In this document: one piece after another, positions 3,011 to 61,600 of the stretch | Numbering within the stretch: position 1 is the first letter of the stretch | Layout: each line of letters begins with the position of its first letter | Virus record (IMG/VR): IMGVR_UViG_3300045009_000924 | Span: 1-64,000 of that record | Origin: a virus | DNA: 64,000 nucleotides | Strand: one strand, 5' to 3' | Position numbers and translations under genes: made by a program | Notes under the pieces: generated by a model | Told to the model about the DNA's origin: nothing | Databases searched by the model: none | What the model saw: the letters and a program-made list of their open reading frames with translations, nothing else

Positions 3011-3043
3011 ATATTCTCCTAATCAATTTTACTAGTCACGTTA

Positions 3044-29776: not shown

Positions 29777-31858
29777 ATGGCTTGGAATAGTTCACCGAAT
29801 AATAAATTGTTGGGTCGAGAGCGAATTAAAGCTCTTGGTTATGGCTTGCCAATATCGGCCAATCCCTCTTTTGCAGATAAACCATATAAAGATGGCTGGG
29901 ATATCGAGCGCGCCTACCGCGAGGGCATGTCGAAAATTACGTGGGTCAATAGGTGTATTGATGCCATAGCGGGAAATCAGGCAAGATTGCCAGTGATGTT
30001 GAGGAAAGACAATTCCAAATATGGCGAAAAAGTAAAAGGGAGGGAAGCCGATAGGTCAAAAACACTTGAATTGCTAAATAATAAAGCAAACATCGGTGAA
30101 AACTCTTTCATTTTCAGATACAGACTCTCGGCACAGCTTTTACTTGGCACCAGGGGGGCTTTTATAGAAAAAGTTAGGGGTCGAGACGGTGGGGTAGTCG
30201 CACTAAATTTGCTTCCCCCACAATCAACAGCGCCAATACCACACGTCAAAAATTTTGTGTCCGGATATGAAGTGTTAATGCCGTACGGAGTAAAAAAAAT
30301 ACTAAAACCAGACGACGTGTGTTGGATTAGAAGACCACACCCACTTGACCCATATTTATCCTTAACTCCACTTGAGGCTTCTGGAGTGGCCATAGAAATC
30401 GAAAATTTAGCAAAACTTTATAATAGAAACTACCTCCTCAATGACGGTCGTCCGGGTGGATTGCTGGTTGTTCGTGGCGAAATTGATGACGACGATAAAG
30501 AGGAATTGCGAAGTAGGTTTAGGGGGAATTTGGCGAAAACCGGTCAAACAACGGTAATTTCTTCAGATGAGGGTGTTGATTTTGTTGACACGTCAGCATC
30601 TCCGAGAGATGCCGCCTACATGCAAATGCGACAAATAACCAAAGAGGAAATACTTTCAGCTTTTGGTGTTCCCGAGTCTGTTATTGGAAATGCTGCGGGA
30701 AGAACTTTCTCAAATGCGGCCGAAGAAATAAGAGTGTTTTGGGTTGAAACAATGAGCCCCCATTTAGAAGTTGTTGCGAGAGCGATAGATGAACTGGACG
30801 AAGAATATTATATAGATTTTGATACTTCGGAAGTTCCAATTCTGATGCTCTACAAACAGGAACGAGAACGCTACTTAATGCAAGAACTTCAAGCTGGATT
30901 AATTAGTGTCAATGAATATAGACTTGGTTCGGCAAGAAAAGAAGTTGAATCGGATTTGGCAGATTCATTACTAATGAATCCCAACCTGATACCGATTGCA
31001 AATACAAAAAAGAAAATGGAAGAAAACGCTGCACAAATACCCGGAGCCCAAGGGGCAGCGCCCGGAATGCCCGGAATGCCCGGAATGCCCGGAATGCCTG
31101 GAATGCCCGGAATGCCCGGAGCAGAACAGCAACCCCTAGACCCCAACACAATGCAGGGGGCAATGGCTGGGCTTGCCAACGCCGAGTCACAAATGGCCCA
31201 GGATATGCTGGCCCCAAGCACTCTTCCACCCGAGGCAACCGGAGCGGCACCACAAACTGGCCAAGTTCCACAAGCAATGACGACGGCGTCGGATTCGGGA
31301 ATTCAAACAAAATCAAACGAACAAGAAGAAAATTCACAGTTTGCAATGGAGAGATGGTCTGAAATACTTTCACGTGGAATAGAGAGAATTATCGAAAGAC
31401 AACAAAGAGTTGTTTTGGAAAAAGCAAGCGGAGCCAAATCAAGAAAAGCATTATCCTCCGGAACTCTTGATATCGATTCAATTATTTCAGTTGACACATG
31501 GAACAAGCAGATAGAGGAAGATATAAAACCAGTAATTGTGGCAATAATCAATGACGGCCTTGAAAACAGAAATAATTTTTACGAGAAAAAGGGAATAAAA
31601 ACCAAATCTCTTCAACCAGTTGAAATAATTATGTTTGCCGACAAAAGAATTTCTGAAATTAAAAAATTAAACAAAGACGTTCATGCGGAAATTTCCTCTT
31701 TAATGATTAAATCATTTTCAATGAAAGACGAAGAAGAAAGATTTATTCAATTTAGACAAGGAATAATTGAAATGTATGCAAATGTTTTTGCAAAAGAACA
31801 AGTTGCTGTTGCTGAATCAGAAACAATCCTCGCTTGGAATTTTGGTCAACAAATTTAG
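29777..31858 (+). CDS. HK97-family portal protein with extended C-terminus
   Basis: The protein has 693 aa. Portal features: ITWVNRCIDAIAGNQARLPV, RYRLSAQLLLGTRGAFIEK, NLLPPQSTAPIP, DDVCWIRRPHPLDPY and FGVPESVIGNAAGRTFSNA. HK97-type portals usually have 400-500 residues. Here a C-terminal extension of ~260 aa begins with a Gly-Met-Pro repeat at ~430-447 and a Gln/Ala-rich linker. A helical domain follows, in which KALSSGT (residues 557-563) resembles the RLSSG linker of the polyproteins. The prohead protease encoded just downstream may trim this tail, but that is inference. The 12-membered ring is the DNA entry vertex. Confidence 0.93.
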   Translation: MAWNSSPNNKLLGRERIKALGYGLPISANPSFADKPYKDGWDIERAYREGMSKITWVNRCIDAIAGNQARLPVMLRKDNSKYGEKVKGREADRSKTLELLNNKANIGENSFIFRYRLSAQLLLGTRGAFIEKVRGRDGGVVALNLLPPQSTAPIPHVKNFVSGYEVLMPYGVKKILKPDDVCWIRRPHPLDPYLSLTPLEASGVAIEIENLAKLYNRNYLLNDGRPGGLLVVRGEIDDDDKEELRSRFRGNLAKTGQTTVISSDEGVDFVDTSASPRDAAYMQMRQITKEEILSAFGVPESVIGNAAGRTFSNAAEEIRVFWVETMSPHLEVVARAIDELDEEYYIDFDTSEVPILMLYKQERERYLMQELQAGLISVNEYRLGSARKEVESDLADSLLMNPNLIPIANTKKKMEENAAQIPGAQGAAPGMPGMPGMPGMPGMPGMPGAEQQPLDPNTMQGAMAGLANAESQMAQDMLAPSTLPPEATGAAPQTGQVPQAMTTASDSGIQTKSNEQEENSQFAMERWSEILSRGIERIIERQQRVVLEKASGAKSRKALSSGTLDIDSIISVDTWNKQIEEDIKPVIVAIINDGLENRNNFYEKKGIKTKSLQPVEIIMFADKRISEIKKLNKDVHAEISSLMIKSFSMKDEEERFIQFRQGIIEMYANVFAKEQVAVAESETILAWNFGQQI
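31064..31117. repeat. Six 9-bp repeats (GGAATGCCC) in portal gene
   Basis: There are six head-to-tail nine-base units with one base change. They encode six Gly-Met-Pro triplets, a short collagen-like or flexible linker between the portal core and its C-terminal extension. Confidence 0.93.
31448..31462 (+). other. ALSSG, degenerate polyprotein-linker motif in portal
   Basis: Codons 558-562 encode ALSSG, preceded by K and followed by T. Four of five residues equal the RLSSG motif, and the capsid protein has a similar ALNNG. This may be a cleavage site for the prohead protease. Confidence 0.3.
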
Positions 31859-31956: not shown

Positions 31957-33882
31957 ATGCAGGAAAAATTTCAGTACAAATCTAGCCATATTGCTACGTT
32001 GGGGCCAAAGTCAAGCTCGCTCAATCTGGATGAGGCTCAGGGAATAGTTGAATGTTTTGTTGCTGGAATAGGCAACAAAGACAGCGTCGGCGACATTGTC
32101 GCGGCTGGTGCCTTCACAAAGAGCTTGCAGCGCAGAAAACCAAGAGTTGTCTGGGGACACAATTGGAATGACCCAATCGGCAAGGTTTTGGAAATATATG
32201 AAGTTCAATCTTCTGACCCACGTCTGCCAATGAAGATGAAAGTTGCTGGAATAGGTGGTCTCTTTGCAAAAGTTCAATTTAATCTTAACTCAGAAAAAGG
32301 AAGAGAAGCTTTTGCGAACGTTGCATTTTTTGGAGAAGAACAAGAATGGTCAATCGGTTATAAAACACTGAGAGCGCAGTTTGACCAGAAATCGCAGGCA
32401 AATGTAATTTTTGAACTTGAACTTTATGAAGTTTCACCAGTTCTTCATGGAGCAAATCAACTTACCGGAACTATTTCTGTAAAGAACGACATGCTCGCAG
32501 AGCAGCAAACAACCCCGGCAGGTATTTCGGTTGTGCTACCAGGCGAACAGTCGATTGATAGAGAAGAAATACAAAAGCAACTCTGCAATATGTATGGTTC
32601 AAAAATACATGTTGTTGATGCAGATGCGGAAACGGTTACTTTCGTTAAACCAGGAGAAAAGGGGGGATATGAAAAATATAAATGTCACTGGATTAGGAAC
32701 GGTGGAACATTTATGTTTGGAAATCCACAAAGAGTTTTTACGCCACAAGAGCTTCCCCAGCAGCCACAGGTTGTCATTTCCCCGCCATCACCCCACATTC
32801 ACCCAGCGCAGCCGCAAAGAATTGTCAGACCACAGCAAATGCCGGCAATACCGGTTGCAATAAAACCAAATCCAATCGGACCGGGAACAGTGATGGTTCC
32901 ACTTCCAAAAATTGAATATGAAGGCGACTCGCCCCAAATAGATAAAAATAATCTGGACAAAGAGGAAGCGGAATTGCGCGACGCGTTGTTAAAAATTGTA
33001 AAACGACATGGAAAATTCAATGAAGATGGAACTGGTGTTTGGGCTGGGTATTATCCTCCAGAAAAAAATCCAGTTGCGGGAATCGGCGTAAAATGCGCAA
33101 ATTGTGTTCTTTACAATGGTGGTTCATCTTGCAAAATAATTTCTCTCCCTGTTCACCCAGAGGGCAAATGTAGATTTGCGGTAATACCGAATGGCGTCGT
33201 AAAAGGCTATGAATCTGATAAAAAAGCAGCCGAAAAATTTGAGGACGATGAACGGGAAGACTACCTAATTGAAATGGAAGCAAAATATCCAGGTGAACTT
33301 CTTTTGGCTGGCTTACGTGGTGCTGTCGGTAGGTTGAGAAAAAAGAAAAGAAAGAAAAAATATAAAGACTTAGCAGAATTCAACGAAGACGAAATAGACG
33401 AAAAGGGTTATTGTATTGGAATTGACCCAGAAGATGCATTCGCGGTCAAACAAATCCTTGACCCAATCTTTGATTACTACAAAGCTGAAACATTTGTAGA
33501 TGTTGATGGAATAGTAATTCAGTCTGGCATTAGTTACGATTTGATAGAAGCTGTAGATAACGCGCTCGAAAACAACGAGATAAAAAAAAAATTATTAGTT
33601 GAGTCTGGCGTTCAGGTAAAAAACCTCGGAAGAAGAATTGCTTCTTACGGTGCCGCTCGTTTAATAGATAGACCCAATCTTGGTGGTCGTTCTCGCAGGG
33701 GTGGCAAGCGCGGATTTGGCGTTCCGGAGGGCGACCTCAACCCAGATACACGCGTAGACAAAAATAGAAACGGTTTGCTATTCGATGGATTTCCGGGGTG
33801 GGAGCAACCAGACCCAACTCCATACGGACCCGGCTCAATGTACAACACAGACGTCACACCAGAACAACGAATAGACAGCGGG
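31957..33882 (+). other. Polyprotein 1, residues 1-642: HK97-type prohead protease and Cys4 module
   Basis: Residues ~15-180 are a U35/S78 prohead protease. GIVECFVAGIGNKDSVGDIV and AGAFTKSL start it. VVWGHNW provides the catalytic His (H68), EEQEWSIGYK the catalytic Ser (S132), and FELELYEVSPVLHGAN closes the domain. A Pro/Gln-rich linker follows. Residues ~345-420 hold a module with VKCANC, SSCKI and EGKCRF (C380, C383, C392, C405), like a small HiPIP-type or zinc site. A basic patch (RKKKRKKKYKD) and a helical region lie before the first RIDSG motif at 638. A protease that heads its own substrate chain could cut in cis first. Confidence 0.85.
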
Positions 33883-36800
33883 AAAATTGGGACAGAGGGA
33901 AAGCCAATTGGGGGAGATGGTGCAGTAACGGACCTGGTTAAGCGCCCAGAGGACAAGCCCCAGTTGCGGAGCGGTCCAGCGCGCCCCACCGATGAAAACT
34001 TTGTTCAGCCGCTTGATGAAAAACCCAAGCCGCAAAAACCAAAATCAAATGAACAAAGAAGAATTAAATCTGGAAGAAATCTGGCACGACATGGACTCGG
34101 CAGGGAACATGAACAAAAATTTGGTGTCAGCAGAGATGAAAAACAAAGAAGAGAAGATTTTGACAAAATAGTTCAAAATTGGATTGATTCAGGGTTCAAT
34201 TGGGAACAATCACCAAGAAGTTCATCTGACAAAAAAGTTTCAGAAAATTATCTTCGTGGTAAAGAAATGGGGAGAAATCAAGCTCGAGTTGCATGGAGGG
34301 GAACTAATAGGGGGAGCGGAAAGCGACCGGAAGGTTTCAATGAAAAAAATAAATCGAGCAAAGAGTATGCAGACTGGTTTTTTATGTATGCCGGTCACCT
34401 TGGAAATTTTGCACGAGCTCTAGATTCGAAAAAAATAAAAAACAGAGAAGAATATGATAAGGGAATAAAAAAGGGAATATCTGAACATTTTGCAGACAAG
34501 CTTCCAGATACTTCAAGTTGGGATATTGATAAAACAAAAAAATACAACAACTGGCTAAATGAATTCGGATATGAAACAAATGTTTCCGACGGAAGGCTTT
34601 CCTCCGGTGATTTGCGCGAACGAACCGCCAGGGGGGGACAAACAAAAATTGAAGGATTGGATGGGGGTTTTGACCCCGACAATCCATTTGGCGACGAAAA
34701 TATGCCATACGACTTGGGCTTTGATGTATACGACAAAATAATTGAAGAATTCCTGGGAGAGGAAACTCCGAAGAAATTTAGGCCAAAACAAGACGAACCG
34801 CAAGCCTGGAGTGATGAGGAAATATATCGAAGAAGAATGAGCGGTGCAACCCTACAGGAGGTTGCCGATATTCTCGGCTGGAGTCGCCAGGAAGTTAGAC
34901 AAGCAGAACAAAGACACATGTACTTCTTGCGAAGCGGCAAAAAAATCGAAAGACCAAAAAGACTTAATAAATTGAGAAAACGAAGAAAAGAAAATAAGGA
35001 AAAAGTAAAAGCATTAAAAGAAAAACAAAAAGCGGAAAAAGAAAAAGAAAAAACAGAAAGAATCGCCAAAGAAAAAGAAGAAGCAGAAAGAATCGCTCAA
35101 GAAAAATTAGACAGAGAAGAAAATCGCGGACGCCTTTCCTCTGGTGGAAATGAAAAATTAGATAACGCAGGGCCGGTTGGTCACGTACTCAGCCAGGTTT
35201 CCCCTCGGAGAGCAGAAAGACTTTCTTCTGGGGCCAATCTAAATGAAGCTGAATTGGAAAAATATTATGACAACATGAAGTTTCAAATTCTTTCTTCAAT
35301 ACAGGAAGCATTAAAAAATCCGGATTTGAAATTTGATAGACCATGGGCGCGCACTGACAATTATGCAAGAAACCCAACAAACAAAAGACGAAACGTAGCG
35401 GGAAGGGCATACGAGGGCAGCGGACAGTTAATTTTGTCCATGAAAGGTTTCACGCAAAAATACCCAGTGGCAAAATGGGCTGGGGCAAAGCAGTGGAAAG
35501 AAATTGGCGGGAGAATCAGAAAAGGCGAAGCACCAACATGGATTCTTGCCCCAACAATAAAAAACGGGAGAAGAACTGGCGAGTTCCACATGACGGCGGT
35601 GTACAACATTGCCCAAGTGGAAGGATTGCCACAGGCAATGTACAAGGCAATGCCAGATGTGATTTCAGAAGAACAAAGAGTACAAAACGTTCAAAATATA
35701 ATTAACGAAATCGGGCCAGTTGTTGAAGAAGGAAATTTCGGAGGTGCATTCTTCAATAACACAAGAGATACCATATTCATGCCTAAATTCGGACAATTTG
35801 ATAGCGCTGTTGATTATTACGCCACTTTGATGCACGAGATAACACACTGGACCGGCCACGAATCAAGACTTAGACGGAAAAAGGGGAAAATGACAGCTCC
35901 GGAGTTTTCCGACGAATTCAGGCAGTATGCGTTTGAGGAATTAATTGCTGAAATCGGCTCTTCTTTGATAATGGGAATGCTCGGAATAACGCACAAATTC
36001 AGACAAGACCATGGAACATATCTAAAAGAATGGGCAAGCCAATTGAGCACGGACCCAACCGCAATTAGGAGAGCAATGGTTGAAGCACAAAAAGCTGTTA
36101 ACTATGTCCTAAATCGCTCCGCGACGCTCAGAAGACTTGGTGGTTTTGAACCCGACGAAAGAAGAAGCGAAGGTGACCTCAAGTATGAAATTCCACTTAT
36201 TGAGGGAATGGTTGATTCTCCTTCGGTGCCCAGGGGTGGGGTTATTCGCGGAACATTTGAACAAATAGATGATGACGATTCAAGACTTTCATCCGGGAAA
36301 ATAGAAGATTTTGCAACTCGACCACACAAAGCTGGAAAAACGCACAAGATAGGAACAAGAGGCTGGAGCGCAATAGATAGACAAAACGGCGATAGAGAGG
36401 TTTATCACTATTCGACAATGATGGGAATCATACGAGGCAATGAATACTTTGAAATTTCAAAGGGCTGGGACTCCACATCAGACAAACAGGGAATAAATAA
36501 AATACTCAAAGCTCTGGGGCAAAAGGAACCAAGAAGAGCAGCAGAACTAGAAATTACAAACAGGCTCAACTCTGGCAAGATAGAAGATTTTGCAAACAGA
36601 CCACACGTCCCCAGCAGGCGAATAAAAGCAGGTAGCGGTGGGGCCTGGAGCTCTTTTGATTTGGCAAATGGTGATAGGGAAATTTACCACTACTCAACAA
36701 AAATGGGTTTTATACGAAACGGAGCATTTTACCAAGAATCCGATGGGTGGGGTTCTGTTTCCGACAAACAGGGAATAAATAAAATACTTAGAGCTTTGGG

Positions 36801-39800
36801 GCAAAAAAATGCCATAAGAGTTCAACAAATTGCAAACCTAAATACAGACGATGATGACAGATTTGTATCTTTGCCGAAAAAAGATGAAAATGGAAAAGTA
36901 ATAGACGCAACTGGGAGACTTTCGAGCGGCGGGGGAATCATAAACTCCGTAAAAAACCCCAAAGATAAAGACAAACAAATCAAAAGAACAGAAGACGTTT
37001 CATTTCAACTTGCTCACCAGCTTCCAAATGAGCCCACCCAGCAGCAAAAAGATATTATCGAAACTGCAATGATGGCCATAACCGGAAAATTGCGACCATA
37101 TAAAAATAAACAGGGAAGAATGGTGTACCCGGTCATATCCGTCCAAGCCGCAGCGGGAACGGGAAAAACAACAACACTCAAATGGCTTGCTAGAACATTA
37201 GACGATTTGTTTAATTTGGAAATTGGAAACGAAGCAGAAAGAAAAGAAAAATTAAGTTTTCTATCGCAAAGATTTGATGTTGATTTTTCGAAAATGACCG
37301 ATGAGCAAATAAAAAAGACAGTCGAAAGCTTAAAGGATAAGTATGGTTCTAAATCACTTTATTACGCCGTATTCAACGTAAAAAACCAAGAAGAGGCCGA
37401 AGCTGTTTTTCCACAAAATACCGGCGTAGCTACGCTCGACAAATTGGCACGATGGGGCGTGATGATGGGTGCTGCAAACGAAAAGTTTGGAGACCATATT
37501 GCAAGAAAGCTTACGGCAGCTGGGGCGAGAGTCGACAGGGCGAGAGATTTTGATGACCAAGGAAAACCGATAGGCGGCGCTGTAACCACACTCAAAAACG
37601 ATGGAACACCATATCAATTCACTTATGTCGACTACGCAACTGGCGAAAGAAAACAAACAGGGCCACACCCAACAGCAAAATTGCCAGACGGTTCACCCGC
37701 TGGGCAAAAGCCAACACTTGAACACACGGGATTAATAACTCTAGAAACAACAGATGATTTCCTGCGATTTCTAAAATTACAACCAGATTCAAGAAATCTT
37801 CCGGGTTCCGACAGATTGCCAGACCTGGATGGAATGACACTCGCCGAAATAATTAGGCATGCAGTAGAAAGATGGACACTAAGCACAGATGAAAAATTGT
37901 CAGCAAAGCATTTTTCTTATGATGAAGAAGACATTCTATCAAGGCAATCTGGCTATAACCAACGAGTTGCAACGGGACAGGCAACATTAGATGTTGGATA
38001 TGAACAAAAACTTGATGAGGTGGGTGACCCGGTTTTCGATGACGAGGGCAAACCAGTAATGGTGAGAGCGAAGGAAGCTATCGGGAGCACAGATTTCAAC
38101 CCGCGTTTTTGGGTACGCGTACAGGAGGACCCAGAAGCAAATATTCCTGAAGAATGGCTAAAAATGGGCCAAAAAGTTGTCGAGAATATATTGCAAGAGT
38201 TTTATGTAGACGAAAAAGGTAAAAAACAAAAAACACTTGTTCTTCCGAGCCAGGGGCAAATCGCAAAAATATTTGCTCTTTCAAACCCGGACCTTTCAGA
38301 AGCAAAATACATGGTCGGTCACGCAAAAGGTGTAACAAGGCGTGATGCAGTTCGCACAAGTGCTAAAGTCGGGGACGTAGTAGACAAAGACGGCAATGTT
38401 ATAAAAGATGTTAGAAAACTTCCTCCAGACTTTCCGTTGTGGATTGTTACTGCAATAGATGGTGCTGGTGCTATTGAAAAACCCAAAAAAGGAGGTAAAA
38501 CTCCAAGCGTTGAATCGTCCAAAAGAACTGCAACCATCAGAAGAGTATTTGCCGACCCATTAAGAAAATTGAATGCTTTATTTATTGATGAAGCACAAGA
38601 CCTTAACCCAACATTCATGTCAGTTCTTGAAAACAACAGAGATAAATTCCCAATAATTCTCGTTGGCGACGAAAGACAGTCCGTTTACAATTTCAGAAAT
38701 GCAGTAAATGCAATGGAGTTAATGGACCCAGATTATATTTTGCCGCTCAATGAATCATTTAGATTTGGTAATAGGCTAGCTCATCAAGCAAATATACTTC
38801 AAGCATATTTGAATCTTGACGATGAAGAACTTGCGGCGACAAGGGGCGAACTACCACCGCGAAGACAATGGGTGACGGGTCATCATCACATGCTTGTTGC
38901 GAAACAATTTGATGACGCAATAGAATTGCTTAAAAAATCAGATTCATTAGACAAAAGAGACAAAACAACGCTATTGAGAATTTTGAGCGCACTGGACAAA
39001 GAATTCAAATTGTCTCAAGAATTCACAGAAAAAACAAAATCACCAGAGTATGTTCTCATTACCGATGAGGGTATTTCAGCAAAAGACAAAATTAAATTTC
39101 TCGAAAAAAGAAAAGCTAGTGCCGTAGAAGAATCGGAAGGAAGAATACACAATCGATTTGCCTATGTGCTGGATGAAAATGGGCAAAGAATACCGGAACT
39201 CGACAGTGATGGCCAACCACAACGAGATAAAGACCACAATATTGTGTACAGAAGAGTTGGCCCACTACTTCCTAAAATTGGAGAAACTTTTGCATTTCTT
39301 GCTGGCACAAATGAGGAATTAATACAAAAAGCATTTGAGTACGCCCAACTTTTGAACAACGAAGTCCAGATGGAAACACTTGCATGGATTATTAGAAATC
39401 CCGGCAAGACTCCACCACCAGGGCTTGTTCCTCAAATAACTATCGCTCCCAAAAAATTCGACGATATTCTTACGTTTCTTAAGCACTACGCCTGGGTTTT
39501 GGATAGCGCAAAGGGACGTGCAGGAAAAAAACCGCCCAAATCTCCATTTATAGGAAACCTGTGGACTAGAGAACAAATTAAAAGAGAAGCTTTAAGGCCG
39601 GGCAAAACACAGCTTAGAACAATGTGGAGAATACTTCACCCCCGCAACGGCCAACCAATGCACCCACGAAGACTTATACACCTAATGGAGGGAGGAATGC
39701 GAAGAACTGGTGTTTTGGGACCAGACGGCCGAGAGACACTTGTGTTCGAACCAGCAGTCATTCTCCCTGAACGCAAGGTACTAAAAATTGAAACACAATT

Positions 39801-42800
39801 TCATTTTCTTCATGCAAAAAAAGAAAAAGGCGAATTAAGCATCGAAGAATTGAAAAATCAACCAACAACAAAATTAAGCAACAGAGCAGACGTAACCGAC
39901 ACCTCTCTTAATAAAGTGACCGTGTTGGCTGGCAAAGGCAAAGGCGACTCTGCGCAACAGTCGGATATTCACTGGCATCTTGAAATGGAACAACAAGATA
40001 GCAGTGGTAAATGGAAAGTAATTGACGGAACATGGGACCACAACTCCAAAAAACCAGGACGATGGACTGGGCGAGTCATACTAACTGGACAGGGACTCAG
40101 TGGCTCAAAGTTAAGGGGAGGCGGACAAGGTAAACGAAGACCAGCTGGGTATTATCAAGAAGATGTAAAAAGAATAACCACAAGAGACCCCAGATTCAAA
40201 AAATATTTTGTTTATGAAGAAAGCATGGGAGTGATTAGGCGTGCCGCCGCTGCAGGGCAGGGTGAAACAACTTCACGAAACGACCAATATGCGATAGACA
40301 TAAAAGACGTTGATGGAAGCGAAGAAAGACTGTCAGAAATAATACGGGAAGTTTCACAGGAAATACTCAAAGCGGCAAACACAAATGGGGCAGATGCAAC
40401 GATAACGACAGCGCAACTATTTAAAGGACTCGAAGCACATACCATCGTGATAGGTGAGGCTTTCCAAAATGCATTTGACGAAGAAAGAGAAGCGTTTAAA
40501 AGAGTCGGTAAAAAATCACCACAAATGAGAGAAATGTTGAATACTGTATATGTCGCTTTAACTAGAGCAGAAAAACAAATTGACATTGGCGAAAGAATCG
40601 CCAAACTTTATTTTAATAGAGATAGCAGGCGGCGAGCCATAGACCACATAAATGACGAAATTGCAAAACTTAGAAAATCTGGAAAGCCAGAAGATTTGAC
40701 ACTTGCAGATGCTCTCGAAATTCCCCAAAATCATTTTTACGGCATTGATGACGACGACCCGAGAAGACCAGGACTACCAACCCCCACCTCACGGTCGGAT
40801 GATGACGATACACGGGTGAATGAGGAGGCAGATAATGCCGAAATAGAAGTAGATAATGCCGAACTAGAAGAGGATGAAAACATAGTTCCCAACAAAGATA
40901 ATGATGATGATGATGGGGAACCAACTGTTGATGAAGACAACATTGCCGGCAAGGATGATGAACAAAATGAGGATGAAACCTCTTATGTCAACTCTGGCAG
41001 GGTGAGCTCCGGAAGAGAAAATAACATAGTGGCAGTGTTGGGCAACCGGCCACGACGAGGAGTTCTCTCTCGGGAAGCTCAAAAAATTTGGGATACAAAC
41101 TTCCCCGAGCAATTGAATAAAATAATAAAAAATAACAATAAAAATGATGTATTGTCCCTTTATTCAGATACAACAAAATCAGAAATATCAAAAATATATA
41201 GAGGAAAAAATCGCTCATCGACTTTTTCGGAGAACCCGGATTTGGGGTTGGACCCAGACCACGAAGAGACGGAGTTTGATTTCTTCAATGTAAACCAAAA
41301 AGATTTTGAAAAAGCAAACAAGTTAATTAATCGGGTCGGCAAAGTATCAAATGTTGTCTGGGCACTGAAAAATTCAAACGATAAAAATTCAAGTCCCAAA
41401 ACACAGCTGGCTGCGAAAAAAATACTCAATGATGCACGGTATGACCGACTTTCATCTGGCAGGGCCGACAGAAGAGTAATTAAGAGTCTTGACGACGTCA
41501 AACAAAACATGAAGTATGACCACAGCAGGGCTGCGGATTACAAAATGACGGACGAGCAAATAAATATATCCGATGCAGTAATGACAGGGGACAACATTGT
41601 TGTTCGAGCCCTTGCGGGAACTGGAAAAACCTCAACCTTGCTGTCGACCGCAAAACGATTGCTTGACCAAGAGCCAGACAAGAGAATTGTCTATTTGACG
41701 TTTACAAGAAAAATGGCAGAAGAAGCAAGAAAAAAATTTAAAGATTACCCCAATGTTGAAGTTAGAACTTGGGACTCCGTTGGATTTGGAATTATTGGAA
41801 CAAACGAAAAACTTGCACGAAAAACAAATTCACAAAATCCAGGAATAATCGGCGTCGGAAATAATGAAGATGTTGCTAACCATTACGGATTTCAGGATGA
41901 TTTTGAACAAATTCAAGTAAAAAACAAACAGGGAGATTTGGTTCCAGAAACTGTTGGCTTAACCAGAAGACAAAGAGCTGCACTAATGGCAAGAGCGGCA
42001 ACAGAATTTTCAACTGGAAAAAATCAAAAAACTAACAGACCCTATACGGAAATGAACAAATCTCTAATTGGAATCGCTGCTTCTAAAATGGGGATAAATA
42101 GACTCAGTGACAGACAAATCGAAGAACTCGTCCGTCAAGCTCAAAAATTTTGGAACGATTCATTCGATGAAAATAGTCCACTGGAAATGTCAAGAAGTTA
42201 TATTTTGAAAAAATGGTCATTAACAAACCCCGACCTTGGCACTGGCGCTGGTATGAAAAAAAATGTTGATGGCAATGACATAATTTTCTTCGATGAAGCA
42301 CAAGATGCCAATCCGGTGATGACTGATGTCATTAGAAATCAAAAAATTCAATGGATAGCGGTGGGCGACAGTAATCAAGCAATTTATGAATTCAGGGGCG
42401 CCGTTGACGAATTGGAAGACCTTGAAGCTCCATATCAACTAACGCTCACAAAAACATTTAGATTTGGCAAAGAAATACAGGCTATTGCAAACAGATTTCT
42501 CAAAGCTCATGAAACAAAACTGACAAACGAAGAAGACGAAACACCAATATTCGCAAAATTGAGAATCGACGCAGCTGGTCCAGAGGGAATAATTCTCGAT
42601 TCCGAGGAAATGTTTCCCAAAGGAATTGCCGTTTCTGCAACTAGGGAAACAAAGAAAAATGGAAGTAAGGAAACACTTGCATTTTTGTCACAAACAAATG
42701 CAAAATCTTTTGAAAGAATAATTAATGAACAAGACAATGGTCGAAAAACAGGGTCAACAACTACATTTAAGAATGACCTGACCGGAATGATTGACCACAT

Positions 42801-45800
42801 GGAATGGTTGCAGGGTGGTAAGAAGACTGAAAAACCTAAGAATGTATTTCCGCCGCTGTGGAGCGTAAAAAATTGGGACGAACTTGCCAAGGCCGCAGGC
42901 CCACTTGGAGAGGGGGGAGCAACCGAGCTAGGAGGGGGAGCACCGGAAGAATCAGTTGAAAATGTCGACGTAAGTCAACAGGCACTTACCGCTTACAGAT
43001 TATTTGCTAAATATAACTTTAACTGGTCAAAAATGAGACAACATGTAGCAAATATACAAACACTTGATGGCGGAGATGTAATAAGTAGAAAGATAACTGC
43101 TGCAGATTTGCTCGATGAATTTGAACCAGTGGAAATTGTTGATGGCGGAGTTTTGTCGGCAAGCTGGAACCCACGAACAAAACAAATTGTTTTGAAAAAC
43201 GAGGGGGGAGATTGGGGGCAATTCACTGCTTACAAAGACCTATTGATAAAAGGCAAATACAAATTTACCTGGGGGGACCCAGCCGGTAAATACGGCAGAA
43301 AAACAGAACAACCAGGATGGCACCTGGAAGTTCCCAATGTTGATGCTGCTGCTTCAACTCTCAATAATCTTGCTAAAGATATTGAAATTGGTATACCGGG
43401 TGGTGATTCTCCGGAGTTTTCTTCACTTCAAACTTTTTCCCCCATTGTTGAGGGGAGCGGGAGCATACCCAATTATTTGAGCGGCGCGAAATACATCGAT
43501 GATAAAAGAAACACAAAAACAGTTAACTCCGAAATAACACTTCGTTTCAAGCGAGCAGATGGAAAATTTGTTGCCGTGGCGGATGGAAACACATTCCAAG
43601 TAAAAAACGTACTCAAGGGACAAGACCCCAAAACCAAAAAGTCAACATTTGCATGGTCGTCAAAAGATAAACCCCAATTTGGCGAACCAAATAAATGGGT
43701 TACCTCAGCAGACACAATTGAGGAATTGTACGAAAAACTTGAAAACCTCCGAAAAGTTAATAATTTAAGCGGTGGTTCCTCCTTCTTGCTGCAACCAACA
43801 CCATTGCAGGGGGCGGCGAAGAATAGTGTTGACATAGTTGCGCAAACAGCACATAGGTCCAAAGGACTGGAATTCGACAATGTTATTTTGGCGGGTGATT
43901 TCAAGGCACCGAAATGGGAGGAACTAGCTGAGGAATTAATAGTAAAAATGCAAAAAGATGGAAGAGTTATATCTAAAGAAGACATTGGTTCTCTTAAGGA
44001 ATTTTTGGAACTTCTTACACCCAAAGAGAGAGAAGAATTTAAGAAAAAGATAATTAAATCGATGGGAGCTGAAGAAATTCGATTGCAATATGTTGCCGCA
44101 ACAAGGGCAATGCGAAGACTTGTTCCGGGTTCACTTTCATGGATATTCGACGTCACCGACAATGAGGACGAAGAATTTAAAAAAGTGGACATTTCGAAAC
44201 CAAAGACACCAACAAGAAGAGCGGAAAGAAGAAATAGAAACACACAAGAGGGGGATGACAGGGTCTCGTCTGGCAGAGACCGAGACGAATCTGAAATTGA
44301 CCCCGATTATCCAATCGCAACAGAGGAAGAGCGTAGACAGAACGAATATGAAATGGGCCTGGATAATGAGGTAGACGAAAGAATTAGAGAAGGAGACAAA
44401 AAGAGCAGGAGACAGATAGAAAAGGAAATAAACCAAAGAGACGTAGATGCTGGAGATGAACAGGCAAAAGTAAAACAAAGAGAAATTATCGATAGAGATA
44501 AAAGATTGCAAAGTTCTGAAATTGACCCCGATTATCCAATCGCAACAGAGGAAGAGCGTAGACAGAACGAATATGAAATGGGCCTGGATAATGAGGTAGA
44601 CGAAAGAATTAGAGAAGGAGACAAAAAGAGCAGGAGACAGATAGAAAAGGAAATAAACCAAAGAGACGTAGATGCTGGAGATGAACAGGCAAAAGTAAAA
44701 CAAAGACAAATTATCGATAGAGATAAAAGATTGCAAAGTGGCGCTGACCAAACGACAGAAGAGGGAAGGCTGGCAAGAAGAAACAGAAAAAACAATAATA
44801 TTGACGATTCTGGCGATGGGCGAATCAGCAGTGGCCGCGACACGGTGTCTGCTCGAATCGTAGAAAAAATGCACGGCTTTAGTGCTGACAATGATGAAAA
44901 TGAATCGGCGAGACGCGCATGGGAGAGAATAAAAGAAAAAGGTTGGTTGATTGACCCATCGGGTGTCACTGGCGAGGGAATAGACAAAAAGAAAATCGAA
45001 TCAACATCTATTGGAATGGCAAATATTGGTTCGAGAATAGCCGCCAGAAACAGAAAAATAAAAATTGGTGACATATCAAAAAATAATCCTGATTCAGCAA
45101 ATCAAGAAACATGGATGCTTCCTGTTGAAAAACTTAAAAAAATGATACGAATACCCACCAAATGGGACCCCGAAACTGGCGACGTAATTGAAAGACGGGA
45201 ATTAAGTAGCGCAGAATTGGGGACAATGCTCAATTTGACTATTAGCGAATCCAGAAAATTAAATTCACCCAATGCGGGATTGTCGTTTAATGATGTCATG
45301 TATTTGATTGCAGAAATCGGAAACGAGCCAAGATTTGATTCATGGAGACTTTTCTCGCCGACAACTCTTGATGAATCTGGAGTTTCCGAATCAGACTATA
45401 TGCAGAGAGCTATAGATAATTTAGGAAGAGCAAAACTTAGGGAGAGATTTGTTCTGGAAACATTTGGCAAAGATGCATTCCCCATGTACATCGGGAGAAA
45501 CGAAAAAAATAGGATATCCCAATCCGAATATGAAAAAATGGACTCTGATAAAAGATTTGAATATGGTGGAATTTTTAAAGATGATGGTTCTTCGGAAGAT
45601 GCAAATACGGAATTGATGTATGAAGGAATGCGGTCTGATTCCCCAATTCCATTCACGCAAAATATAAATAAAACAAATACGACAACGCCAATTTCTCCCG
45701 TTTCTTCAAATGCAAAAACAATGAGAGCAGAATTCAGATTGAGCGAATTATTGGCAGCTCTGGGAATATCGGGAGAAGAAACAATTGCCGAAAAAGATAA

Positions 45801-46368
45801 AAAATTAAATTCATTTCTTAGCAGAAGTTCAATAGGTGAACAATCGAGAAAAACTATTGGAAGATGGGAAGCGATGGGTGTTCCCACTTCCGTTATTTCC
45901 GAAATGATTAAATCCGGGATTATAAAAGACGCAGCATCAGTGTTTAAAAATACCGATGTCGGAAGAAGGCTTGACATGGAATTGTCGAGACCAAAATATT
46001 CAGTTTATGAAGCGTTGCTTAATTTTATTAAAGAAACACAAGGTAGTTCGCCAAAAAATACAAGAAAAACAGTTTCCGACATACTTGACGCAACTGATGC
46101 TTACAACTACCTTCCGCAAATAGCAAAAGCCAAAGGTTCGATGCCATATTCTGCAAACGTCGGCGATATTCCCAGGTACTCAGATTCCGAATTGCAGCAA
46201 ATAGTAAATCGTTTCAATAATATTTTTGGAACCCAACACACAATTGATGATATTTTTAGCGACGAGCAAATTCGGCAGGCAAGAGAGAGAATAGAAAAAG
46301 ATGGAATTCATACGCCAATCGGCAAACCGAATGTAAGAACAAAACTAAAAAATGAAAATAATGAGTAA
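31957..46368 (+). CDS. Giant polyprotein: prohead protease plus internal-protein domains
   Basis: 4,803 aa, one uninterrupted frame. I use the ATG at 31,957, which follows a TTG; AGAAAG precedes it. Residues 1-~180 are an HK97-type prohead serine protease. Unrelated domains follow, split by R-[LIV]-x-S-[GS] motifs. These start at residues 638 (RIDSG), 702 (RIKSG), 880, 1059, 1088, 1443 (all RLSSG), 1536 (RLNSG), 1654 (RLSSG), 3015 (RVSSG), 3164 (RLSSG), 4102 (RVSSG), 4183 (RLQSS), 4258 (RLQSG) and 4289 (RISSG). Domains between them are given as separate entries. Placement between folded domains, and recurrence in the second polyprotein and tape measure, point to protease sites. A phage gene of this size normally encodes a tape measure; this one clearly does not. 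Confidence 0.93.
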   Translation: MQEKFQYKSSHIATLGPKSSSLNLDEAQGIVECFVAGIGNKDSVGDIVAAGAFTKSLQRRKPRVVWGHNWNDPIGKVLEIYEVQSSDPRLPMKMKVAGIGGLFAKVQFNLNSEKGREAFANVAFFGEEQEWSIGYKTLRAQFDQKSQANVIFELELYEVSPVLHGANQLTGTISVKNDMLAEQQTTPAGISVVLPGEQSIDREEIQKQLCNMYGSKIHVVDADAETVTFVKPGEKGGYEKYKCHWIRNGGTFMFGNPQRVFTPQELPQQPQVVISPPSPHIHPAQPQRIVRPQQMPAIPVAIKPNPIGPGTVMVPLPKIEYEGDSPQIDKNNLDKEEAELRDALLKIVKRHGKFNEDGTGVWAGYYPPEKNPVAGIGVKCANCVLYNGGSSCKIISLPVHPEGKCRFAVIPNGVVKGYESDKKAAEKFEDDEREDYLIEMEAKYPGELLLAGLRGAVGRLRKKKRKKKYKDLAEFNEDEIDEKGYCIGIDPEDAFAVKQILDPIFDYYKAETFVDVDGIVIQSGISYDLIEAVDNALENNEIKKKLLVESGVQVKNLGRRIASYGAARLIDRPNLGGRSRRGGKRGFGVPEGDLNPDTRVDKNRNGLLFDGFPGWEQPDPTPYGPGSMYNTDVTPEQRIDSGKIGTEGKPIGGDGAVTDLVKRPEDKPQLRSGPARPTDENFVQPLDEKPKPQKPKSNEQRRIKSGRNLARHGLGREHEQKFGVSRDEKQRREDFDKIVQNWIDSGFNWEQSPRSSSDKKVSENYLRGKEMGRNQARVAWRGTNRGSGKRPEGFNEKNKSSKEYADWFFMYAGHLGNFARALDSKKIKNREEYDKGIKKGISEHFADKLPDTSSWDIDKTKKYNNWLNEFGYETNVSDGRLSSGDLRERTARGGQTKIEGLDGGFDPDNPFGDENMPYDLGFDVYDKIIEEFLGEETPKKFRPKQDEPQAWSDEEIYRRRMSGATLQEVADILGWSRQEVRQAEQRHMYFLRSGKKIERPKRLNKLRKRRKENKEKVKALKEKQKAEKEKEKTERIAKEKEEAERIAQEKLDREENRGRLSSGGNEKLDNAGPVGHVLSQVSPRRAERLSSGANLNEAELEKYYDNMKFQILSSIQEALKNPDLKFDRPWARTDNYARNPTNKRRNVAGRAYEGSGQLILSMKGFTQKYPVAKWAGAKQWKEIGGRIRKGEAPTWILAPTIKNGRRTGEFHMTAVYNIAQVEGLPQAMYKAMPDVISEEQRVQNVQNIINEIGPVVEEGNFGGAFFNNTRDTIFMPKFGQFDSAVDYYATLMHEITHWTGHESRLRRKKGKMTAPEFSDEFRQYAFEELIAEIGSSLIMGMLGITHKFRQDHGTYLKEWASQLSTDPTAIRRAMVEAQKAVNYVLNRSATLRRLGGFEPDERRSEGDLKYEIPLIEGMVDSPSVPRGGVIRGTFEQIDDDDSRLSSGKIEDFATRPHKAGKTHKIGTRGWSAIDRQNGDREVYHYSTMMGIIRGNEYFEISKGWDSTSDKQGINKILKALGQKEPRRAAELEITNRLNSGKIEDFANRPHVPSRRIKAGSGGAWSSFDLANGDREIYHYSTKMGFIRNGAFYQESDGWGSVSDKQGINKILRALGQKNAIRVQQIANLNTDDDDRFVSLPKKDENGKVIDATGRLSSGGGIINSVKNPKDKDKQIKRTEDVSFQLAHQLPNEPTQQQKDIIETAMMAITGKLRPYKNKQGRMVYPVISVQAAAGTGKTTTLKWLARTLDDLFNLEIGNEAERKEKLSFLSQRFDVDFSKMTDEQIKKTVESLKDKYGSKSLYYAVFNVKNQEEAEAVFPQNTGVATLDKLARWGVMMGAANEKFGDHIARKLTAAGARVDRARDFDDQGKPIGGAVTTLKNDGTPYQFTYVDYATGERKQTGPHPTAKLPDGSPAGQKPTLEHTGLITLETTDDFLRFLKLQPDSRNLPGSDRLPDLDGMTLAEIIRHAVERWTLSTDEKLSAKHFSYDEEDILSRQSGYNQRVATGQATLDVGYEQKLDEVGDPVFDDEGKPVMVRAKEAIGSTDFNPRFWVRVQEDPEANIPEEWLKMGQKVVENILQEFYVDEKGKKQKTLVLPSQGQIAKIFALSNPDLSEAKYMVGHAKGVTRRDAVRTSAKVGDVVDKDGNVIKDVRKLPPDFPLWIVTAIDGAGAIEKPKKGGKTPSVESSKRTATIRRVFADPLRKLNALFIDEAQDLNPTFMSVLENNRDKFPIILVGDERQSVYNFRNAVNAMELMDPDYILPLNESFRFGNRLAHQANILQAYLNLDDEELAATRGELPPRRQWVTGHHHMLVAKQFDDAIELLKKSDSLDKRDKTTLLRILSALDKEFKLSQEFTEKTKSPEYVLITDEGISAKDKIKFLEKRKASAVEESEGRIHNRFAYVLDENGQRIPELDSDGQPQRDKDHNIVYRRVGPLLPKIGETFAFLAGTNEELIQKAFEYAQLLNNEVQMETLAWIIRNPGKTPPPGLVPQITIAPKKFDDILTFLKHYAWVLDSAKGRAGKKPPKSPFIGNLWTREQIKREALRPGKTQLRTMWRILHPRNGQPMHPRRLIHLMEGGMRRTGVLGPDGRETLVFEPAVILPERKVLKIETQFHFLHAKKEKGELSIEELKNQPTTKLSNRADVTDTSLNKVTVLAGKGKGDSAQQSDIHWHLEMEQQDSSGKWKVIDGTWDHNSKKPGRWTGRVILTGQGLSGSKLRGGGQGKRRPAGYYQEDVKRITTRDPRFKKYFVYEESMGVIRRAAAAGQGETTSRNDQYAIDIKDVDGSEERLSEIIREVSQEILKAANTNGADATITTAQLFKGLEAHTIVIGEAFQNAFDEEREAFKRVGKKSPQMREMLNTVYVALTRAEKQIDIGERIAKLYFNRDSRRRAIDHINDEIAKLRKSGKPEDLTLADALEIPQNHFYGIDDDDPRRPGLPTPTSRSDDDDTRVNEEADNAEIEVDNAELEEDENIVPNKDNDDDDGEPTVDEDNIAGKDDEQNEDETSYVNSGRVSSGRENNIVAVLGNRPRRGVLSREAQKIWDTNFPEQLNKIIKNNNKNDVLSLYSDTTKSEISKIYRGKNRSSTFSENPDLGLDPDHEETEFDFFNVNQKDFEKANKLINRVGKVSNVVWALKNSNDKNSSPKTQLAAKKILNDARYDRLSSGRADRRVIKSLDDVKQNMKYDHSRAADYKMTDEQINISDAVMTGDNIVVRALAGTGKTSTLLSTAKRLLDQEPDKRIVYLTFTRKMAEEARKKFKDYPNVEVRTWDSVGFGIIGTNEKLARKTNSQNPGIIGVGNNEDVANHYGFQDDFEQIQVKNKQGDLVPETVGLTRRQRAALMARAATEFSTGKNQKTNRPYTEMNKSLIGIAASKMGINRLSDRQIEELVRQAQKFWNDSFDENSPLEMSRSYILKKWSLTNPDLGTGAGMKKNVDGNDIIFFDEAQDANPVMTDVIRNQKIQWIAVGDSNQAIYEFRGAVDELEDLEAPYQLTLTKTFRFGKEIQAIANRFLKAHETKLTNEEDETPIFAKLRIDAAGPEGIILDSEEMFPKGIAVSATRETKKNGSKETLAFLSQTNAKSFERIINEQDNGRKTGSTTTFKNDLTGMIDHMEWLQGGKKTEKPKNVFPPLWSVKNWDELAKAAGPLGEGGATELGGGAPEESVENVDVSQQALTAYRLFAKYNFNWSKMRQHVANIQTLDGGDVISRKITAADLLDEFEPVEIVDGGVLSASWNPRTKQIVLKNEGGDWGQFTAYKDLLIKGKYKFTWGDPAGKYGRKTEQPGWHLEVPNVDAAASTLNNLAKDIEIGIPGGDSPEFSSLQTFSPIVEGSGSIPNYLSGAKYIDDKRNTKTVNSEITLRFKRADGKFVAVADGNTFQVKNVLKGQDPKTKKSTFAWSSKDKPQFGEPNKWVTSADTIEELYEKLENLRKVNNLSGGSSFLLQPTPLQGAAKNSVDIVAQTAHRSKGLEFDNVILAGDFKAPKWEELAEELIVKMQKDGRVISKEDIGSLKEFLELLTPKEREEFKKKIIKSMGAEEIRLQYVAATRAMRRLVPGSLSWIFDVTDNEDEEFKKVDISKPKTPTRRAERRNRNTQEGDDRVSSGRDRDESEIDPDYPIATEEERRQNEYEMGLDNEVDERIREGDKKSRRQIEKEINQRDVDAGDEQAKVKQREIIDRDKRLQSSEIDPDYPIATEEERRQNEYEMGLDNEVDERIREGDKKSRRQIEKEINQRDVDAGDEQAKVKQRQIIDRDKRLQSGADQTTEEGRLARRNRKNNNIDDSGDGRISSGRDTVSARIVEKMHGFSADNDENESARRAWERIKEKGWLIDPSGVTGEGIDKKKIESTSIGMANIGSRIAARNRKIKIGDISKNNPDSANQETWMLPVEKLKKMIRIPTKWDPETGDVIERRELSSAELGTMLNLTISESRKLNSPNAGLSFNDVMYLIAEIGNEPRFDSWRLFSPTTLDESGVSESDYMQRAIDNLGRAKLRERFVLETFGKDAFPMYIGRNEKNRISQSEYEKMDSDKRFEYGGIFKDDGSSEDANTELMYEGMRSDSPIPFTQNINKTNTTTPISPVSSNAKTMRAEFRLSELLAALGISGEETIAEKDKKLNSFLSRSSIGEQSRKTIGRWEAMGVPTSVISEMIKSGIIKDAASVFKNTDVGRRLDMELSRPKYSVYEALLNFIKETQGSSPKNTRKTVSDILDATDAYNYLPQIAKAKGSMPYSANVGDIPRYSDSELQQIVNRFNNIFGTQHTIDDIFSDEQIRQARERIEKDGIHTPIGKPNVRTKLKNENNE
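34075..34608 (+). other. Polyprotein 1, residues 707-884: helical domain of unknown function
   Basis: About 178 residues between RIKSG and RLSSG. The segment is basic and helical (REHEQKFGVSRDEKQRREDF, WFFMYAGHLGNFARALDSKK, KKGISEHFADKLPDTSSWDI). It has no cysteines, membrane segments or enzyme motif I can name. Its size fits a small capsid-internal protein. Confidence 0.45.
34609..35145 (+). other. Polyprotein 1, residues 885-1063: HTH and basic coiled coil
   Basis: A helix-turn-helix of the sigma-region-4/resolvase type is visible: SDEEIYRRRMSGATLQEVAD then ILGWSRQEVRQAEQRHM. It is followed by a long Lys/Glu coiled coil (KALKEKQKAEKEKEKTERIA) that ends at RLSSG. I infer a DNA-binding protein made to be released from the precursor. 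It could package DNA or act on host promoters after injection. The next motif, at 1088, leaves a 29-residue spacer. Confidence 0.55.
35233..36297 (+). other. Polyprotein 1, residues 1093-1447: ArdC-type antirestriction protein
   Basis: The segment between two RLSSG motifs is 355 aa, about the size of a complete ArdC protein. The N-terminal half resembles the ArdC single-strand-DNA-binding domain (KFDRPWARTDNYARNPTNKR, FTQKYPVAKWAGAKQWKEIG, APTWILAPTIKNG). The C-terminal half is the matching metallopeptidase: YYATLMHEITHWTGHESRL with HEITH at 1293-1297, and EELIAEIGSSL with the third zinc ligand E1332. ArdC proteins protect incoming DNA from restriction or serve as TraC-like factors. Release from a capsid precursor would place it next to the entering genome. 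Confidence 0.82.
36298..36930 (+). other. Polyprotein 1, residues 1448-1658: tandem duplicated ~93-aa domain
   Basis: Two copies, 1448-1540 and 1541-1658, each begin KIEDFA directly after a cleavage-like motif (RLSSG, RLNSG). Shared blocks are NGDRE[VI]YHYST, [GM]WxS.SDKQGINKIL and ALGQK. The fold is unassigned; the YHYST region suggests a small alpha/beta domain. Both linker and domain are duplicated, so one cleavage would release each copy. Confidence 0.7.
36931..41013 (+). other. Polyprotein 1, residues 1659-3019: UvrD-like SF1 helicase I
   Basis: About 1,360 residues between RLSSG and RVSSG. SF1A helicase motifs: Q-motif-like NEPTQQQKDIIE, Walker A AAAGTGKTTTL (K1737), Walker B LFIDEAQDLNP (2211-2215), motif III VGDERQSVYNFRNA, motif IV-like NESFRFG, motif V AQLFKGLEAHTIV, and motif VI VYVALTRAEKQ (R2870). 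Very large insertions follow motif I and motif IV, the latter with a beta-rich region near 2,620-2,790. The last ~80 residues are an acidic linker. Helicases of this kind unwind or remodel DNA. The presence of a complete set of motifs argues that it is active. Confidence 0.85.
41014..41460 (+). other. Polyprotein 1, residues 3020-3168: unassigned linker domain
   Basis: 149 residues between RVSSG and RLSSG. Mostly helical with a charged middle (LSREAQKIWDTNFPEQLNKI, EETEFDFFNVNQKDFEKANK, LAAKKILNDARYD). No fold or motif recognised. Its position between the helicases suggests a separate small product. Confidence 0.4.
41461..44274 (+). other. Polyprotein 1, residues 3169-4106: UvrD-like SF1 helicase II
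   Basis: A second SF1A helicase of 938 residues, distinct from helicase I. The motifs are: MTDEQINISDAV (Q region), RALAGTGKTSTL (Walker A, K3224), VYLTFTRKMAEEAR (Ia), IFFDEAQDANPV (D3446-D3450), AVGDSNQAIYEFRGA (III), TFRFGKEI (IV), IVAQTAHRSKGLEFDNVILA (V) and YVAATRAMRRL (VI, R4050). A beta-rich insertion lies around 3,600-3,800. It is the more canonical of the two. A pair of helicases delivered together could act on recombination intermediates, replication starts or the entering phage DNA. Confidence 0.9.
44275..44835 (+). other. Polyprotein 1, residues 4107-4293: duplicated charged 75-aa peptides and spacer
   Basis: Two 75-residue copies (EIDPDYPIATEEERRQNEYE ... IIDRDKRLQS) lie head to tail. 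Each ends in RLQS and may be cut from the chain. The sequence is very charged, helical and acidic/basic mixed, without a hydrophobic core. A further 31-residue spacer ends at RISSG. See the DNA repeat entry. Confidence 0.7.
44290..44739. repeat. 225-bp tandem duplication (two copies)
   Basis: Copy one is 44,290-44,514 and copy two 44,515-44,739. By eye they differ at a single base (AGAGAA against AGACAA near each 3' end, Glu to Gln). Near-identity including third codon positions indicates a recent duplication. The unit includes one complete cleavage-like motif. Confidence 0.95.
44836..46368 (+). other. Polyprotein 1, residues 4294-4803: C-terminal domain of unknown function
   Basis: 510 residues after the last RISSG motif. 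Helical with several small HTH-like stretches (SSAELGTMLNLTISESRKLN, VPTSVISEMIKSGIIKDA). A possible globular unit starts at ~4,560 (FRLSELLAALGISGEE) and runs to the end. No enzymatic motif. Similar Ser/Asn-rich linkers are absent from the rest of the chain. Not assigned. Confidence 0.4.
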
Positions 46369-46431: not shown

Positions 46432-46494
46432 TTAGAGACATTTAAATAACGGTTAATGCCAGCAACGGTATTTTCCTGCACACACAGGAGTTCT

Positions 46495-51100: not shown

Positions 51101-51900
51101 CAAAATCCAAAAAAATTAAAAAATTTAAAAGCGGAGCAGATGCAAAAAATCATGCTCAAAAAGAAAGAAAAAATCTTCGCAGAAAAATATCAAAAGAGCA
51201 AGCGCAGGCAGTTAGGGAAATGGGGGATTTCAAGTCGAATTCAATATCCAGAATTTTGCACCCAGAATCAAATGCACAATCCGGAAGAGCAATGAATAGG
51301 GCAAACGCAAGATTGCGAAGACTTGGCCTCGAGATAGATAAAAAAACAACTTCCGACGGGTCAATGGAAGACCAAGTAAAAAATATTTTGATTCCAACCA
51401 TGGAGGCCATGGACCTATCGTCGGCTTCCGAGCCATTCGAAATGGAAGCAATAATTGAATTAGAGCCAGGCGAATTAAGCGGAAAAGCATTGGGTAAAGA
51501 ATTTGACCATAAGGGCTTTGTTAACGGAAGGGTAATCAGCAAAGGCCATAAGAAGGGTGACGTCTCTAAAAAGAAAAATCCACAAACGGGCAAAAAGCAA
51601 AATCGAGTTATTGTGACCGTCAAGGAAGGTGACAGGGGGATATTCCCATCGGCTGGAGCCGATGAAAAACAAATGTTTGTTATTCCGCCAGGAAAAATGA
51701 GGGTAATCGGGAGAGACCCAGATGGAACAGTAAGAGTTGAAATTTCTTCGCAAAAAGGTACGACCGAAGTTCTTGATGATTTGGCAAGGGATTTGGCAGA
51801 GGGTTCCGGTGATGCAATCTGGAGAAAATCAGCAGCTGCGAAAATCCAAAAAATTTCCGACAAAAGAGTCGTTGATGTTCCATCACGTCTTTCGTCTGGC
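48196..51900 (+). other. Polyprotein 2, residues 1-1235: metalloprotease-like, coiled coil and ART-like segment
   Basis: Residues 229-248 hold FRCPPG ... FTDMRGTTC, a motif shared with the 669-aa protein at 57,879. Residues ~560-690 contain ALHEIGHSIQGEAF (HEIGH at 584-588) and LLEAQAEMWAMREMG (E680/E684), a zinc-metallopeptidase pattern. A long coiled coil follows (~710-1,030). The last part has LSGKALGKEFDHKGFVNGRV, VTVKEGDRGIFPSAGA and MFVIPPGKMRVIG. This recalls the beta region of phage ADP-ribosyltransferases, but the expected ExE pair is not clear, so that reading is tentative. Confidence 0.5.
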
Positions 51901-61486: not shown

Positions 61487-61600
61487 AGTTCCACTATTAA
61501 GTGTAAATAATCTGTTATTTTGGAATATCACAGGGCTGGGTGCTTTCCTGAGCCGAGTAAAAAAAAAATCAATCCAACCCTCTCAATACAGGAGAAAAAA

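Follow-up and report, generated by a model that had tools for sequence, protein, structure and literature searches.

Can a tailed phage encode a polyprotein that is read by its own protease? The question is raised by a reading frame of 4,803 amino acids (aa) in IMG/VR virus record IMGVR_UViG_3300045009_000924, of which we analyzed positions 1 to 64,000 (here called the window; 64,000 nucleotides). The original prediction for this DNA described an HK97-type prohead protease heading a chain of domains separated by R-[LIV]-x-S-[GS] motifs and proposed that the chain cleaves itself within the capsid. We found that the motif is placed at module junctions, is conserved at the protein level, is confined to giant proteins, and changes in concert between phages. 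A polyprotein-like strategy, in which a phage-specific activity would recognize a selected junction motif, fits these observations best.

The frame (positions 31957-46368 on the plus strand, stop included) is uninterrupted. An independent contig (L002) matches residues 1-1,946 with 100% identity, and the architecture recurs in L003, whose S78 domain is 89% identical; an assembly accident is therefore excluded. The architecture is common to many relatives. The protease assignment was also sound: the Pfam family PF04586 (Peptidase_S78) matches residues 29-178 (32041-32490, plus strand) with 43 bits against a cutoff of 21, a second profile search gave 49.3 bits, and the proposed catalytic positions, H68 and S132, do not vary among 25 relatives. 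A sequence search of solved structures returned no match for the S78 domain, and in an AlphaFold prediction of the N-terminal 1,078 aa it was poorly modeled, probably because the alignment was shallow.

Counting the motif gave the predicted 14 copies, with exactly 6 RLSSG. When the chain was shuffled in 50-residue blocks, R[LIV]xS[GS] occurred on average 0.56 times (maximum of 4 in 2,000 shuffles) and RLSSG 0.008 times (maximum of 1). Even the closest relatives do not conserve RIDSG at residue 638, which was dropped as a junction site; 13 plausible sites are left, all on the plus strand. The first is RIKSG at residue 702 (34060-34074), which aligns with RLSSG in L003, L005, and L010. It is followed by RLSSG at 880 (34594-34608), 1059 (35131-35145), 1088 (35218-35232), and 1443 (36283-36297), by RLNSG at 1536 (36562-36576), where relatives have RLSSG, and by RLSSG at 1654 (36916-36930). 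Further downstream are RVSSG at 3015 (40999-41013), RLSSG at 3164 (41446-41460), RVSSG at 4102 (44260-44274), RLQSS at 4183 (44503-44517), which lies within a duplicated unit of ∼75 aa, RLQSG at 4258 (44728-44742), and RISSG at 4289 (44821-44835).

The sites lie between the recognizable domains, as had been claimed. After the S78 unit (residues 1-705; 31957-34071), which ends at the first conserved motif and corresponds to stand-alone S78 genes of 460 to 468 aa in G041 and G058, the chain carries an ArdC-N domain (PF08401; residues 1110-1198; 35284-35550) and an MPTase-PolyVal zincin (PF18818, 109.7 bits; residues 1244-1373; 35686-36075) whose HExxH motif (HEITH) is intact and invariant in 25 relatives. 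Two copies of a repeat domain (KIEDF...; 36295-36543 and 36574-36825) precede a first helicase module (approximately residues 1660-3010; 36934-40986; Pfam stretches at 1727-1750 and 2189-2249 and conserved hel1N and hel1C blocks) and a second one of UvrD type (residues 3206-4056; 41572-44124; PF00580, PF13245, and PF13361). Pfam matches to UvrD-type helicases occur in both regions (∼1727-2249 and 3206-4056), the latter being the clear one. A C-terminal module of no known family (44824-46365), shared by most of the fused RLSSG-clade relatives, completes the chain; all of these features are on the plus strand. No motif falls inside the Pfam-placed ArdC-N, MPTase, and UvrD-type helicase matches, and the helicase stretches 1660-3010 and 3170-4100 are motif-free throughout. 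In AlphaFold models built on the phage-family alignment, 6 of the first 7 conserved sites (702, 880, 1059, 1443, 1536, and 1654) are in or at segments with a predicted local distance difference test score (pLDDT) below 50, and 1088 is in a loop immediately before ArdC.

Comparison between lineages gave the same picture. Only 87 of 159 motifs fall in blocks conserved between lineages, which comprise 75.7% of the residues (P = 6e-9 for avoidance), and none of the 32 motifs in two relatives with tandem KTSC domains falls inside such a domain. The junction that precedes the first helicase (1654) is retained in all 25 aligned relatives with its serine and glycine invariant, while its flanks vary. 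In the two KTSC-bearing polyproteins (L228 and L229), an iterated model gave seven and eight KTSC matches, with the motifs interspersed.

The repetition might instead stem from chance, low complexity, or a repeated DNA element, to which we give next to no credence. The 20 RLSSG sites of the window and of L279 are encoded by 20 distinct DNA words with varied serine codons, so DNA-level copying and recent duplication are excluded and selection must act on the protein. Expected counts are below one, and the motif is confined to giants; together with the codon diversity, this refutes all three variants. What speaks for them is a bias in the leucine codon, which is CTT in 16 of the 20 sites (entropy of 0.88 versus 2.21 expected), while the other codons vary freely.

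The same type of motif (R[LIV]xSG) is present in all four giants of this phage, the other three of which the original prediction had omitted. The second giant (48196-56706, plus strand; 2,836 aa) has four copies of RLSSG, at residues 1231, 1493, 2123, and 2342. The tape measure protein (9971-15481, minus strand; 1,836 aa), assigned by synteny with the tail chaperone and tube genes and by partial similarity, has two, at residues 35 and 583. A 5,254-aa giant outside the window (record positions 73953-89717; L279:154-15918) has the motif about a dozen times. Across the 103-kb record, a slightly stricter pattern matched 27 times in 5 giant reading-frame pieces and not at all in 76 other proteins. 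In related phages (160 loci), L[SA]SG occurs 1.87 times per 1,000 aa in S78-headed chains and mostly not at all or ∼0.1 times in other gene families, the highest values (0.54 and 0.46) belonging to two small families with a single hit each. An LSSG in the portal protein (residue 559) was rejected as a further site, being retained in few relatives only. In addition to an RNase_T exonuclease domain, the 5,254-aa giant contains several stretches that look, by eye, zincin-like or ADP-ribosyltransferase-like, and R[LIV]xSG joins these parts. As the motif also occurs in the tape measure and the other giants, strict self-cleavage in the capsid is too narrow a reading: recognition would have to extend in trans and beyond the capsid.

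We then asked how the motif is spelled in other phages, using a search for recurrent patterns without a preset motif. In most relatives, LSSG came out on top; the residue before it is R in some of them, S in L050, L072, L076, and L081, and K in L080. The closer relatives thus use SLSSG, KLSSG, or FSSG, and two seemingly motif-free ones (L049 and L055) have FSSG or FASG at the equivalent places of the alignment. In more distant relatives, with major capsid proteins ∼60 to 72% identical, the giants carry GMRSR, STRSxR, GSKSxT, LGSRS, GFASRG, LRSSG, GLASS, FASTS, or ISGRMG. Across nine phages surveyed over most or all of the record, each spelling was frequent in its own giants and nearly absent elsewhere, giving a near-diagonal table; since spellings were picked per genome, the diagonal counts are selected, and the actual tests are the zeros off the diagonal and the restriction to giants. 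Copies within one protein agree with each other more than expected, both in the residue before the core (mutual information of 1.42 versus a shuffle maximum of 0.89) and in the hydrophobic residue (0.49 versus 0.39). Near residue 600 of the tape measure, five phages show five local spellings. Most spellings share a hydrophobic or small residue, any residue, and serine; a general [hydrophobic]-x-S rule was nevertheless abandoned, as ISGRMG of G033 (L232, L285, and others) breaks it. Relatives of the S78 gene were also seen in contigs of metagenome-assembled genomes labeled Phycisphaerae and Gammaproteobacteria (L280, L281, and L282), which are probably phage contigs that were misbinned; in L280, a frame of 2,690 aa with a GLxSxR-like motif occupies the position of S78.

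That all giants of a phage share one spelling makes a shared phage-specific recognizer a well-supported proposal, most simply a protease that would act also in trans. A shared partner would, on the other hand, suffice for concerted drift even if the motif is never cut and serves as a docking, packaging, or modification site for, e.g., the scaffold or portal. Such a role, which we consider unlikely, would be in line with the serine retained in most spellings and with the short capsid-targeting sequences used by internal proteins of P1 and T4 (PMC9024508 and PMC9958956). One signal per protein would be enough for it, yet giants carry up to 22 copies, at module junctions, and the tape measure is not capsid cargo.

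If the shared recognizer is a protease, the S78 enzyme is our best guess for its identity. S78 is present in every motif-bearing record in which the head region was read. Homologous prohead proteases of giant phages differ in specificity and follow a three-residue rule (PMC5694885 and PMC10052503). In two relatives (G041 and G058), S78 is a separate gene and the motif-rich giants are other genes, so there S78, if it is the recognizer, acts in trans and not by the self-cleavage first proposed. The motif class needs 12 changes on the S78 tree, against a minimum of 11; such a fit is expected for any phage gene and is not specific. T4 gp21 cuts after L/I-x-E, and the herpesvirus assemblin recognizes V/L/I-x-A followed by S, cutting between the two; the geometry resembles that of most spellings, which makes it a lead and not a test.

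Several observations weigh against S78 in this role. The major capsid protein, which the prohead protease would be expected to mature, is free of the motif in every phage examined in full, and its putative N-arm boundary, [LIFY]-[KRQE]-[ST]-[IV]-G, differs from the motif and does not track the spelling; the protein showed no covariation with the motif and so failed as a test of S78 specificity. S78 also evolves slowly, being 95% identical between LRSSG and GLASS phages and 89% identical between STRS and GSKS phages. The stand-alone S78 proteins of G041 and G058 do not contain the motif of their own phage, and the tape measure belongs to the tail, which makes it no obvious substrate in the prohead. 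The records are mostly fragments, in which the absence of a gene is weak evidence, and cleavage itself is a prediction.

The motif-free capsid protein, the spelling that evolves faster than S78, and the motif in a tail protein would all be accommodated if another protease, either an unrecognized phage enzyme or a host protease, cut the motif and S78 matured the capsid only. We regard this as rather unlikely. A host protease fails to explain a phage-specific spelling, and of the 37 Pfam families matched by the small proteins, the 25 listed include no further peptidase. By gene content, a single rival tracks the motif: a 174-aa gene (window positions 56703-57227) that has relatives in each of the seven other motif phages examined at first and that was not found in two motif-free ones (G052 and G047). 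It was not found in motif-bearing G033 either, which led us to set it aside, and its product belongs to no known family and resembles no known structure. In some relatives, this protein heads a protein of 800 to 1,080 aa.

A third candidate enzyme is the ArdC-linked metallopeptidase, the kind of peptidase that PMC5512222 proposes to cut other polyvalent proteins. Its HExxH is invariant, as noted above, and no full-length fused relative of the RLSSG clade lacks an MPTase. PF18818 was, however, not found in motif-bearing G041 (86 kb), G042 (137 kb), G057 (114 kb), and G033 (138 kb), records that may be incomplete. On this ground we rejected it as the recognizer, and we hold it to be very improbable.

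Returning to S78 as the cutting enzyme, we propose that the phage packs its enzymes for early action in the form of a few giant polyvalent proteins and that fusion to the prohead protease may draw the 4,803-aa chain into the prohead. Flexible linkers bearing the phage-specific motif, here R-[LIV]-x-S-G, would join the modules. A phage-specific recognizer, most likely S78, would cut the motif in cis and in trans, also in the other giants and the tape measure, perhaps between LxS and G, and single enzymes (ArdC, the metallopeptidase, the helicases, and the exonuclease) would be freed for ejection with the DNA. Judged from the sequences, this scenario has about an even chance of being correct. 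If each conserved site is a junction, with the cut assumed after LxS, the predicted units are the S78 domain with its extension (residues 1-705), then 178, 179, 29, and 355 aa (the last being ArdC-MPTase), 93 and 118 aa (the two repeat-domain copies), 1,361 aa (helicase 1), 149 aa, 938 aa (helicase 2), and finally 81, 75, 31, and 511 aa.

The S78 chain is set among head genes. The portal gene (29777-31858, plus strand; PF04860) lies upstream; downstream are a motif-free acidic scaffold-like protein (46456-48165, plus strand), assigned like the tape measure by synteny and partial similarity, and the motif-free major capsid protein (61520-63004, plus strand; likely N-arm boundary ...QLTSRELKTIGEMF). 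Gordonia phages GMA6 and ChisanaKitsune and Brevibacterium phage Cantare have an S78 that is 39 to 40% identical in the same neighborhood of portal, protease, and major capsid genes. Unlike the chain described here, their protease is a protein of 417 to 501 aa with an acidic region, without giant fusion or motif. GMA6 and ChisanaKitsune combine S78, a stretch of acidic residues, and a ∼70-aa C-terminal domain in a single gene of 484 to 501 aa, of which Cantare has a version of 417 aa. The counterpart of this domain in the window lies at the end of the separate acidic protein, and for this reason an ancestral protease-scaffold gene appears to have been split, with the cargo attached to the protease half. 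The length of the S78 frame among relatives ranges from ∼460 to 4,900 aa, and cargo has therefore been acquired or lost on repeated occasions. The ArdC-MPTase pair comes early in the cargo of some chains and toward its end in others, which would fit module shuffling at motif-flanked junctions. The host is probably an actinobacterium, as the record encodes WhiB and as Gordonia and Brevibacterium are the hosts of its nearest relatives in culture. None of the cultured phages searched has the fusion or the C-terminal module, and no recurrent motif of this kind is present in the 4.6-thousand-aa protein of Streptomyces phage Gilgamesh.

T4 gp21 was originally named as the closest parallel. In T4 (PMC9958956), the prohead protease does trim injected internal proteins, but these are separate genes, with no array of junction motifs and no fusion of protease and cargo. 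Nearer parallels are the polyvalent proteins (Iyer et al. 2017, PMC5512222), P1 DarA/DdrB, and the ejection proteins of phiKZ and SPN3US. With PF08401, PF18818, and PF00580 in one chain, the 4,803-aa product resembles the giant multidomain polyvalent proteins with their ArdC-N, zincin MPTase, and helicase domains, for which likely packaging, peptidase-driven domain release, and the analogy to polyproteins have already been put forward in that paper. It describes the assemblin-like (prohead) peptidase as always C-terminal, a regularity of its data set and not a definition, whereas the chain analyzed here and all fused relatives have it at the N terminus; nor did we find, in the text consulted, a repeated phage-specific junction motif common to several giants. 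In P1 (DarA/DdrB and the protease Pro; PMC9024508 and PMC5512222), processed antirestriction proteins are packaged in the head, but they are separate proteins, and in these sources the DarA cut site is not determined and no repeated motif is described. In phiKZ, 201phi2-1, and SPN3US (PMC5694885 and PMC10052503), the capsid protease cuts many internal proteins, at A-X-E or S/A/G-X-E, with a specificity that varies among homologues. The differences are that mostly N-terminal propeptides of separate genes are removed there, that the residue before the cut (P1) is Glu, and that the major capsid protein shares the cut site. In our literature search, whose coverage was incomplete, we found neither RLSSG in this sense nor a comparable junction code.

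A protease within the chain and repeated specific sites between units, at which cleavage is predicted, make up the layout of a viral polyprotein. Polyvalent proteins have been likened to viral polyproteins, and we found no published cut-site code for them. It is possible, though a little short of an even call, that a large group of uncultured phages has a true polyprotein system in which each phage has its own protease-read motif, used in cis and in trans in several giants and the tape measure, and in which the code drifts in concert. If so, the group would supply ∼10 natural protease-motif pairs, and protease-substrate coevolution could be read across many sites simultaneously. Thousands of unannotated residues of phage giants could be parsed directly into functional units, and the possible in trans processing of injected enzymes by phage capsid proteases would become directly testable.
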